From Thermotogae bacterium (GTDB lineage: Bacteria > Thermotogota > Thermotogae > Mesoaciditogales > Mesoaciditogaceae): a stretch of 34,474 nt of DNA. The position numbers and the translations under genes are program-made. How positions within the stretch are numbered: the first letter of the stretch is position 1; every line of letters begins with the position of its first letter. Shown here piece by piece: positions 11,746 to 14,950 of the stretch. Location: assembly GCA_026988035.1 (NCBI GenBank), contig JALSLY010000077.1:1-34474 (forward strand), written 5' to 3'. Below the pieces are notes generated by a model that was not told the DNA's origin, did no database searches, and worked only from the letters and a program-made list of their open reading frames with translations.

Positions 11746-13275
11746 TTACATACAGGAATATCTATCTTTATCGTGCAGATCAGCTTTTTCAAAAATTTTA
11801 TCGTAAATATCTTTTCCATAACTCGTTTGCAAAGGTTTGCCTTTAATTATTTTGAAAGTTCGGCTTCCGTCATCCCGCCTCTGAGCACGCAGAAAAATGG
11901 CGTTGTTCATCCTTTTCTCGTAAAAGTTATGCGCGAGTTCGTACATGTGCGTGACAAAGAAAACCTCGACATGGTTTTCTATCAGTGCGGAGACTATCTG
12001 TCTTGCTATCTCAGCTCCTTCCCTTTCATTTGTGGTGGCAAATGATTCGTTAAATAATATCATGGAATTTGTACTTATCTCGTCCACGATATCGCTCATT
12101 CTGTTCAACTCTTCATCGAATTTTCCACTGTTCATTGTCGCGTCTTCTTCGCGTTTGTAGTGTGTAAAAAGGCCGTTACAGATATTGGCAGAAAAAGATT
12201 CAGCCGGAACAAACATGCCACATTGCATCATCAACTGGGATAAACCTATACTACGCAAGAAAGTGGACTTTCCTCCCTGATTGGCCCCTGTAATTATGAA
12301 TAAATCTTTGTCAACGGCGTCAAGATCGTTGCCAACGATTTTTTGATTCATGGTTAAAGCAAGGCAGACATCGTACAACCCTTTGAAAGAAAGTTTACGT
12401 TCGCCTTGATCTACAGGCGCCGGAAAAGAAACCGGCTCTCCAATTTTAGAAAGTTGTTCATACAAATTCAAAGTCCCAATGTAAAAGGCAAGTTCGGTTC
12501 TCAGAATGTTGAAGAAATTAAGAATGTGATTTGCAGACTGGGCGAGTGCATTTGCAACTAGATTGATCCCTTTGTCCTTTAGCTCCGAAAGTGCCTTTGC
12601 ACCACTTTCGTCGCGATCGCTTATAGAAAAAATGTACGCCTGCTCTTTTTTTGAAAATATTCGTCCAATCCAGCTTTTTCTTTTGTGATTTGGTTTACGG
12701 ATTACGTAATTTGTACCTTTATTTCCCTTTCCCAATTCCGCACTGATCAAGATCCCATTACGAAACTCCAGTTCATTCAGATGATTCTCGACAATTTTAA
12801 AATATTCGTCGCTTAGTTCCTCCTTCAACATATCAAAAAATCTCTTAAAGCCCTCTGACTCAAACTTATCAGAATATCTATCTGCGATTCTTTTTAATTT
12901 TTTAAGTGTGCTAACAAGCAGCTCCATGATTTTTATAGAACTGTTCAGTATCCCAGCCAAGTATTGACTGAAGAAACCAAAATAAGTCTTTTTCTCATCT
13001 TCAATCGATTCTAACGCAATGTTATACATGTCTCTCACAACAGAAGGATTTTTCAGACAGTCTCTGAGGATATCTTGACGATACAGTATCGTTTCCATAT
13101 CATTCAAGCTTGAAAGGACAGCTTCTTTTGCCACACGAAGTAAGAAATCATCACCAAATGCCATAGCGTTGAACAAAGTATTCAACTCAAGATCTTGTGT
13201 CAAAGATCGTTCATTCGGTGGTAATTTTTTCTGTAAATCAAAATCATGATCTTTAAACATCAAAAAGACTTTCAT
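11746..13275 (-). CDS. MutS-like ABC ATPase (core plus ATPase domain), 509 aa
   Basis: The C-terminal half is a MutS-type ATPase: Walker A GANQGGKS at 330-337, Walker B MILFNE at 405-410 in which Asn takes the usual Asp place, followed by ATTN, and VTHMYEL with His443. The N-terminal 320 residues are helical and resemble the MutS core/lever region, with [15 protein letters not shown] near the start. The mismatch-recognition and connector domains of true MutS are absent, so this is a MutS-family paralogue of unknown role, not a canonical mismatch-repair MutS. ATG 13275 has AAAGGA eight bases upstream, and its ATGA overlaps the stop of the upstream MutS-like half. It lies downstream of the fluoride riboswitch, in the same operon as its split paralogue. 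Confidence 0.85.
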
Positions 13276-14048
13276 TGCTTTATCCTTTCTTTCAAGTAAT
13301 CATAAGTAAGGCGGTATTTTTTCGCAATGGATATTGCGTATGAAAGACCGTCAGCAGGTTTCCTTAAGATCTTATATGTTCGAAGTACTGGATTTTCTGG
13401 AGCCACCGTGCTTACCATACTCACGACTTTTTCGCTTAAAGAAGATAGTTCATCCATGAAGGTCACCAGAACTGTCAATGAATCTAATTGTATTATCTTT
13501 TCCATCACTTTTTTGCTCAAAAACAGGGCATCCTTGAGGGTAGTGGATGAAAAAATTTCGTTCATTATGATAATGCTATTTGGTGTTGCCAAATTCAAAA
13601 TAGCACGAATTCTCACCAGATCATCTTCAAGTTTCCCACGGAGACTATTGATATTTTCTTCTACTTCAAAGTGTGTGAAGAGCTTGTCAAAAAGGAAAAG
13701 TTGTGCTTCTTTACCAGGTACAGGACATCCTAAAAGAGCTAAATAATGCAACTGCCCAAAGGTACGTGCAAAAGTTGTTTTTCCGCCCTGATTAGGGCCC
13801 GTTACAACGAATATGCGTTCTTTGCCTTTGAGATAAAAATCGTTACATACAACTGATGATCCTTCTTCAGTTATTAATTTATGCGCAAGGGCTAAATCAA
13901 ATCCCTCGTAATCGTAAACTTCTTTACTTGTGTTTGAGATTTTTGGATAGCAAAACTTTAGTTGCGATCTCTTTAGTATTGCAATATATTCAAGATAGGC
14001 AACGTAAAATTGTATTTCTCGATCGAAGTTGGATATCGTTTTGTCCAT
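13272..14048 (-). CDS. C-terminal ATPase half of a split MutS-like protein
   Basis: This 258-residue frame holds Walker A GPNQGGKT at 84-91, Walker B IIIMNE at 159-164 followed by IFSSTT, and VTFMDEL, the same arrangement as the 509-residue neighbour. Its first residues ([16 protein letters not shown]) match what I recall as the middle of full-length family members, not an N-terminus. It begins with ATG 14046-14048 immediately after the TAG (14049-14051) of the preceding gene, in the same reading frame. No Shine-Dalgarno is seen before this ATG, so translation would need reinitiation or readthrough. Together the two halves would be about as long as the intact paralogue. Confidence 0.8.
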
Positions 14049-14810
14049 CTAATTTCTGTTTTGTGTGTAATAGGTGTCGAGATTTAAAAATGTATCTGGA
14101 TACAATTTGGACACAAGTTCCAATATTTTAGCTTCCACATGGTTCATGTTCATCACTTCGAGGAATTTAATCCTGTAATCCTTTACCGATTCTTGCTTAA
14201 ATTTTTCAAATATTTTTTGGACTTCTTCACTGTAGTCAATTTCAGATTCATATTTTTGAACTTTAACCCTGTTGTCTTTTATGAATATAGAGTACTTAAT
14301 AGTGGATAAATCGACTTTGAGTTTCTTGGTCTGCGCAAAGAGTGATTTAAAGCGATCAGAAGTGGTGTAACTTTCCAAATATTCTCGAAAGGCTAAAAAG
14401 CCTCGTGACTTTAAATCTAAATGTGATAAATCGTGCGCCAGAGAAACTACCGAATCGCAGTAAATTTCAAGGGCGTCCAAAAACCATCTTTCCTTCTGAT
14501 GCCGGTAATAAAGTTTGTTACTCTGAGCAATGTCTTTGCGCATCATATGCATCCTATCAGCAAAGATTTCTATATGTTTGAATAGTTCTTCGTTTTCAAG
14601 ATCCTGCATTATTTCTTGTCGATATTTGATCGCATCTATGTCATTTAATGGAGTGTAAAAAAACGGTTTTAAATCATATTCTTGTTTTTGTGCAGTTATG
14701 GCATCTATAATCTGATCAAGGTTTAAGTCAGAGAAAAAATCTGGCATTTCAGTTGTTTCTCTTTTTATCTCATCTTGAATTTTTTCAAACAAGATGCTTT
14801 GAAAAACCAT
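14049..14810 (-). CDS. N-terminal core half of a split MutS-like protein
   Basis: The 253-residue helical protein corresponds to the region before the ATPase domain in the intact neighbour, with DIDAIKYRQEIMQDLENEEL resembling [15 protein letters not shown] there. It contains no ATPase motifs and ends at an in-frame TAG directly abutting the ATPase half. ATG 14810 is chosen because AGAGGTG lies six bases upstream and because an earlier ATG (14834) falls inside the U-tract of the riboswitch terminator. It is the first gene after the fluoride riboswitch. It could be one part of a genuine two-subunit protein, a recent nonsense mutation, or a sequencing error. Confidence 0.8.
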   Translation of the reverse strand: MVFQSILFEKIQDEIKRETTEMPDFFSDLNLDQIIDAITAQKQEYDLKPFFYTPLNDIDAIKYRQEIMQDLENEELFKHIEIFADRMHMMRKDIAQSNKLYYRHQKERWFLDALEIYCDSVVSLAHDLSHLDLKSRGFLAFREYLESYTTSDRFKSLFAQTKKLKVDLSTIKYSIFIKDNRVKVQKYESEIDYSEEVQKIFEKFKQESVKDYRIKFLEVMNMNHVEAKILELVSKLYPDTFLNLDTYYTQNRN

Positions 14811-14830: not shown

Positions 14831-14873
14831 ACAAAAAGCTGATGACACTACATTCCTGTAGAAGCCATCAGCT
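14831..14873 (-). terminator. Riboswitch-controlled intrinsic terminator
   Basis: On the minus strand, AGCTGATG (14866-14873) pairs with CATCAGCT (14837-14844). An inner five-pair stem CTACA-GGAA-TGTAG is stacked inside, and TTTTTGT (14831-14837) follows. The 5' arm is also part of the fluoride aptamer core, so ligand-bound aptamer and terminator are mutually exclusive: fluoride should allow read-through into the MutS-like genes. Confidence 0.85.
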
Positions 14874-14914
14874 GTTATCAGCAGTTCTTATTCTACTGGG
14901 GAGCTTCATCCCAA
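14857..14914 (-). promoter_or_regulatory. Fluoride riboswitch (crcB motif) aptamer
   Basis: Reading the minus strand, GGGA-TGAAGC-TCCC (about 14900-14912) forms the first hairpin and GCTG-ATAA-CAGC the second. These are followed by TGATGGCTTCTAC (14858-14870). The loop bases GAAGC pair with GCTTC as the pseudoknot. Compared with the T. petrophila aptamer as I recall it (loop GAGGC, partner GCCTC), one G-C pair has become A-U on both sides, a compensatory change that strongly supports the call. The conserved AACTG before the second hairpin is present. About ten extra bases (including GTAGAATAAG) lie between the first hairpin and AACTG. The aptamer overlaps a terminator, as expected for a transcriptional ON switch. 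Confidence 0.88.
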
Positions 14915-14919
14915 TATAT

Positions 14920-14950
14920 ATTGTACCTCTTCCACAATACTTTTGTTCAA
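14920..14950 (-). promoter_or_regulatory. Candidate promoter of the fluoride-controlled operon
   Basis: On the minus strand TTGAAC (14945-14950) and TACAAT (14920-14925) are separated by 19 bases, which is long. Transcription would start near 14914, at the first base of the aptamer. A perfect TATAAT at 14960-14965 is an alternative but has no recognisable -35. Confidence 0.4.

Follow-up and report, generated by a model that had tools for sequence, protein, structure and literature searches.

Organization of the locus

The window (the whole stretch of 34,474 nucleotides that was analysed, from a genome of the Mesoaciditogaceae within the Thermotogota) contains on its minus strand a fluoride riboswitch, an intrinsic terminator and two adjacent genes, here termed A and B, that encode paralogous ATPases of the MutS-core type (Table 1). 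Judged from its sequence, the RNA is a riboswitch of the transcription-termination type that precedes a two-gene operon, with the ATG of gene A (at 14810) positioned approximately 20 nt beyond the terminator tail.

Table 1. Coordinates of features in the window, and of additional fluoride riboswitches in the same genome
Feature	Position	Strand	Basis or remark
Fluoride riboswitch aptamer (RF01734)	14852-14922	-	cmscan 43.3 bits against a gathering threshold of 34; E 5.7e-9
P1 hairpin	14910-14912 with 14899-14901	-	two-sided changes in 3 of 4 P1 pairs, 32 aptamers
Pseudoknot 5' strand, GAAGC	14903-14907	-	partner 14861-14865
Pseudoknot 3' strand, GCTTC	14861-14865	-	common to pseudoknot and terminator
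P3 hairpin, GCTG-ATAA-CAGC	14871-14882	-	RF01734 alignment
Intrinsic terminator	stem 14838-14872; tail TTTTTGT 14831-14837	-	-16 kcal/mol; z -4.55
Weak promoter-like site (TGAACA, 18 nt, TACAAT)	14920-14949	-	9 of 12 matches
Gene A, MutS-core ATPase, ~513 aa	13272-14810	-	all 511 positions of a profile of intact relatives matched; one TAG
Gene B, paralogous MutS-core ATPase, 509 aa	11746-13275	-	PF00488 at 95 bits; family alignment; predicted fold
Fluoride riboswitch	L034:5836-5894 (G000:C69)		before NADHdh / proton-antiporter / hydrogenase-type operon
Fluoride riboswitch	L035:170-227 (C72), contig edge		visible sequence like a genus mate's MoxR operon; below Rfam cut-off
Fluoride riboswitch	L036:5033-5091 (C63)		before DUF6062; below Rfam cut-off

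The first-pass annotation of this DNA described three open reading frames behind the riboswitch, of which the first was taken for a MutS-like gene and which together were thought to supply a pair of MutS-family ATPases. The family assignment and the pair both stood, but the gene layout did not: an in-frame TAG (14049-14051) splits one MutS-like gene into an N-terminal half (14052-14810) and an ATPase half (13272-14048), so that the first reading frame is only the N-terminal part of gene A and the three frames reduce to two genes. Gene A carries the motifs GPNQGGKT (Walker A) and IIMNEI (Walker B), and gene B the corresponding motifs GANQGGKS and ILFNES; gene B is open throughout and overlaps gene A by 4 nt, and an ATGA overlap between the two genes is found in 56 of 70 pairs. 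The window thus displays the attributes by which the A/B family is defined (adjacent A and B genes, the NQGGK and NE motifs, and a riboswitch in the genome), with A interrupted by the TAG.

The closest relative (genome G005, of the same family) has a Tyr codon at the position of the TAG, with agreement of the flanking residues. Interruptions of gene A have also arisen independently in two additional genomes, by one TGA (G060:C1:493835-495496) and by five stops (G073:C11:109577-112525), in both cases with the fluoride riboswitch kept upstream, which points to recurrent decay and indicates that some lineages can do without the pair. These interruptions, together with the TAG itself, give a somewhat less than even chance that the local copy is a decaying remnant, in which A is inactivated and the riboswitch drives only B or nothing useful. 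Against this stand the observations that both halves of A, as well as B, are still open and conserved (77-88% identity to G005), that an ATG comes immediately after the TAG, that the break lies at residues 252-257, where a loop connecting two helices is predicted, and that the TAG could be an assembly error. The position of the ATG and of the break would also permit re-initiation yielding a split protein; a split protein, a pseudogene and an assembly error are therefore all possible, and reading of the TAG as a sense codon found no support. The remnant reading applies to this copy alone and would not conflict with any of the proposed functions of the pair.

The riboswitch and its expression platform

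The identity of the RNA as a fluoride riboswitch, first proposed from inspection of the minus strand and borne out by the Rfam search, is virtually certain on sequence grounds. Alignment of 32 fluoride aptamers from Thermotogota demonstrated that 94.3% of the structure cells in P1 and the pseudoknot are paired and that 7 of 12 pairs are altered on both sides; none of 500 shuffles reached the observed covariation, and slid versions of the structure reduced the paired cells to 38-56%. For the pseudoknot, 99.4% of cells are paired and three of five pairs exhibit two-sided changes (GC in 26 and AU in 6 aptamers at pair 17-68; UA in 24 and CG in 8 at pair 20-65), and the covariation of GAAGC/GCTTC with GAGGC/GCCTC that had been suggested earlier is present in this pair table. 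The outermost consensus pair of P1 is a mismatch in the window, and 81% of the P3 cells are paired among the Thermotogota aptamers, in an alignment that is rough.

The earlier proposal that the 3' half of the aptamer doubles as the 5' arm of a terminator was likewise confirmed, the 3' strand of the pseudoknot (GCTTCTAC) lying also within that arm, and the stability of the terminator being matched by none of 200 shuffles. In riboswitches of this class, binding of F- and Mg2+ docks the pseudoknot and thereby frees transcription from the terminator. Because the pseudoknot strand is common to the terminator 5' arm, the expression platform in the window is shaped like that of a fluoride ON switch: ligand binding would dock the pseudoknot, the docked pseudoknot would withdraw the 5' arm from the terminator, and transcription would then proceed into A and B. 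The promoter-like site is no evidence by itself, since 0.8 such sites are expected by chance.

In comparison to the fluoride riboswitches of Thermotoga petrophila and Bacillus cereus, the window RNA exhibits the same aptamer consensus, P1, P3, pseudoknot and overlapping terminator, but has a slightly longer segment joining P1 to P3 and controls no exporter in its genome. The extra bases of that segment (14884-14896, minus strand) are likewise found in G005, and a GUAGAA within it can pair with the UUCUAC of the pseudoknot strand, a possible rival to the docked state. The aptamer in genome G056, which we take to be the crystallised T. petrophila RNA, likewise stands before the A-B pair.

Two MutS-core proteins with a distinctive Walker B motif

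A and B form sister clades (100/100 support) that lie apart from MutS1, MutS2, KamC and KamC-like proteins, with KamC closer to MutS2 than to the A-B pair. Pfam searches placed only MutS_V above threshold in either protein; MutS_III was weak and sub-threshold in 8 of 41 A sequences, and no mismatch-recognition domain I, connector, Smr or nuclease domain was detected in A or B. The predicted folds correspond to MutS cores, comprising lever and ATPase (pLDDT 85.5 for A and 84.7 for B; AF2 for B). No NCBIfam model was reached above its cut-off by A or B: the two scored 89 and 80 bits against TIGR01070 (MutS; cut-off 641.7), the score against TIGR01069 (MutS2; cut-off 400) was 82 bits, and B and A scored 83 and 40 bits, respectively, against NF052383 (KamC; cut-off 300).

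Both proteins share a GxNQGGK motif and an Asn-Glu in Walker B. The Asn was found in 41 of 41 A and 51 of 52 B sequences, whereas ten of ten comparators of the MutS1, MutS2 and KamC types have Asp; the catalytic Glu is kept in every aligned sequence, so that ATP hydrolysis has probably been retained. Asp693 of E. coli MutS is reported to coordinate Mg2+. The Asn of A and B occupies that position, and PDB entry 3k0s is the corresponding D693N mutant.

The lever and ATPase core are shared with MutS1/MSH and MutS2, and the paralogous pair, which probably forms a heterodimer, recalls the MSH heterodimers; A and B differ from those proteins in the Walker B Asn, in GxNQGGK as opposed to GPNMxGK, and in that no mismatch, connector or Smr domain was detected. 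KamC, a MutS-like ATPase annotated in NCBIfam as a reactivase of lysine 5,6-aminomutase, resembles A and B in MutS-core size and fold and in its freedom from DNA-recognition domains, and is used in a metabolic operon, but it belongs to a separate clade and its Walker B keeps DE. B aligns to KamC over residues 88-448 and A resembles it in the ATPase only; no aminomutase was found among the annotated genes of the window.

Linkage of the pair to fluoride riboswitches

A link between the crcB motif and mutS was published by Weinberg et al. in 2010 (PMC2864571), in agreement with the earlier suggestion that the motif had been noted upstream of DNA-repair genes, and the main text of that study names mutS only as DNA repair. 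MutS is absent from a 2024 review of fluoride resistance (PMC11139923). The window locus is a further case of this known association. Added here are the two-gene organization, the division into clades of their own, the Asn in Walker B, the island context and the linkage at genome level, of none of which a description was found in the open-access literature.

When 84,980 species genomes were searched with only the B protein as query, and thus blind to RNA, the best 80 loci (57-84% identity) came from Chloroflexi, Bacillota, Desulfobacterota-type bacteria, Spirochaetes, Bacteroidota, Pseudomonadota and others. With a covariance model built from Thermotogota aptamers, whose calls below 25 bits are uncertain, a fluoride riboswitch was found in 60 of these 80 best loci, and at least two in 24 of the 80. 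In 57 loci both genes are intact and the sequence extends far enough upstream for assessment; of these, 27 have the riboswitch no more than 600 nt upstream of A, 13 have it within 3.5 kb, 7 have it elsewhere in the locus and 10 have none; these ten are not simply misses of the Thermotogota-built model, as a rescan with Rfam also found none there. At the level of whole genomes, RF01734 was present in 45 of 45 pair genomes searched (44 above cut-off), whereas only 4 of the 14 genomes used as controls had it. Within Thermotogota, 14 of 17 A genes stand directly behind a riboswitch, and none of the listed MutS1, MutS2 and KamC-like genes, compared by eye, is near one. The crcB-mutS link is no local oddity: the two genes are a conserved family, marked by a distinctive Walker B motif, that occurs together with fluoride riboswitches in many phyla.

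The genes that accompany the pair, counted as loci among the best 80 and, of these, those in riboswitch operons, encode MFS transporters (23, 8), enolase (19, 11), dynamin-like GTPases (13, 12), CPA-type antiporters (13, 10), CrcB (11, 5), USP (10, 6), phosphoglycerate mutase (6, 4; label from sequence reading) and DUF190 (5, 4). Genes of the same types (eno, gpmA, uspA, crcB and ppaC) make up an operon that fluoride induces in Enterobacter cloacae FRM (PMC5533749). No constant neighbour enzyme that might be a sole client was found across the pair loci.

Riboswitches, exporters and MutS homologues in the host genome

The genome that contains the window harbors four fluoride riboswitches, none of which precedes an exporter (for the three outside the window, see Table 1; for the MoxR comparison at L035, locus L052 shows MoxR-DUF58). 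In four relatives (L040, L042, L044 and L046) the riboswitches of the MutS pair and of the hydrogenase operon are divergent and about 0.06-1.9 kb apart, forming a bidirectional fluoride island; in the genome of the window the two parts of this island are separated. CrcB was not detectable in any of ten Mesoaciditogaceae genomes, each of which has one CLC. That of the window's genome was considered as a CLC-F exporter, but its GHGVP and GREGP motifs, its long C-terminal part and its lack of a riboswitch make it look like an ordinary CLC, which it probably is. The notion that pair and exporter are mutually exclusive in Thermotogota was also set aside, being confounded by descent, and CrcB is present in 30 of 45 other pair genomes. 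With four fluoride riboswitches and no detectable CrcB, this genome offers a natural test bed.

An ordinary MutS1 (821 bits) and a separate MutS2-length homologue (767 aa) are encoded elsewhere in the same genome, and the presence of its own MutS1 speaks against the pair as a replacement of mismatch repair. A KamC-like MutS-core ATPase, scoring at or below the KamC cut-off, is found behind glycine-cleavage genes (L118:5028-6590, G000:C84), and likewise at L121.

Possible functions of the pair

Export, together with over-production of the poisoned enzymes, is the usual explanation of fluoride resistance. A widely distributed, fluoride-switched pair of ATPases that neither exports fluoride nor belongs to its known targets suggests a third route to resistance, and A-B is very likely a dedicated fluoride-response pair rather than a mismatch-repair system. 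The label of ‘DNA repair’ that has been attached to the association since 2010 is probably misleading. The corresponding explanation, that DNA is damaged or miscopied under fluoride stress and that the MutS pair corrects this, draws on the MutS core fold and ATPase and on the suggestion of Weinberg et al. of a stress able to damage DNA (PMC2864571); it appears very unlikely in view of the domains detected (beyond MutS_V, only the weak MutS_III of some A sequences), the canonical MutS1 in the same genome, the replaced Walker B Asp, and neighbours that are fluoride-target enzymes and transporters.

We tentatively prefer, at only slightly below even confidence, that the fluoride-induced pair remodels and reactivates Mg-dependent enzymes that have been poisoned by fluoride. 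By analogy, A-B would work in a KamC-like manner and carry out no DNA repair: it would act as a clamp on Mg-dependent enzymes or complexes that fluoride has trapped (for example, of the enolase type, or nucleotide-MgFx dead ends), remodelling them and freeing the inhibitor using ATP. The Walker B Asn, by replacing the Asp that coordinates Mg, would lower the affinity for Mg2+ and so leave the pair difficult for MgFx to poison. The near-invariant Asn yields a testable prediction about an ATPase that works in fluoride. The NCBIfam annotation of KamC suggests that MutS-core ATPases can be enzyme reactivases, which favours a remodelling ATPase over DNA repair, and that annotation together with the KamC-like protein behind the glycine-cleavage genes indicates that a metabolic role for this fold would be nothing unusual. 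Several observations argue against remodelling: the similarity to KamC is below the family cut-off, is confined in A to the ATPase, and is to a protein nearer MutS2 in the tree; there is no constant client neighbour; ten of the 57 pair loci have no nearby riboswitch; and A is interrupted in three genomes. A more specific form of the remodelling proposal is doubtful. In it, A-B would be a fluoride-specific, ATP-driven repair heterodimer whose Walker B Asn allows it to go on cycling while other ATPases are trapped by MgFx, and which extracts fluoride-metal complexes from poisoned enzymes. If it were true, lineages without a Fluc exporter, such as this Mesoaciditogaceae genome with no detectable CrcB, would owe their tolerance to repair and to the rerouting of metabolism and not to export.

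Two additional explanations were considered. Fluoride-metal complexes might trap translational GTPases, with A-B clamping and splitting the stalled ribosomes in the manner of MutS2; the predicted fold does match the MutS2 core and the MutS2-disome complex (7qv3), and a nuclease is not required for such an activity, but the undetected Smr domain, the placement of the pair outside the MutS2 group and the separate MutS2-length protein in the genome render this distinctly unlikely. Alternatively, the pair might be a nucleotide or Mg2+ sensor whose weak Mg site flips state when fluoride sequesters Mg2+ and which then signals to MoxR, dynamin-like or USP proteins. The conserved D-to-N change at the Mg-coordinating position (the site of the E. 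coli mutation in 3k0s) and the frequency of ATPases, GTPases and USP as neighbours would fit with sensing, but no partner is constant and the catalytic Glu is kept in every aligned sequence, and this explanation is unlikely.

Fluoride riboswitches in other settings

Several loci displayed additional features. Between four and seven fluoride riboswitches occur within 18 kb at L131, L153 and L146, and three of them stand in tandem within 270 bases at L153 (3874-4139). At L200:10090-12086, the ORF that follows a fluoride riboswitch (46.3 bits) resembles a TnpB-type transposon protein. At L129:10382-12202, a fluoride riboswitch (41.5 bits) lies directly before an apparent dihydroxy-acid dehydratase (IlvD), an enzyme that, to our knowledge, has not previously been listed as a fluoride target.
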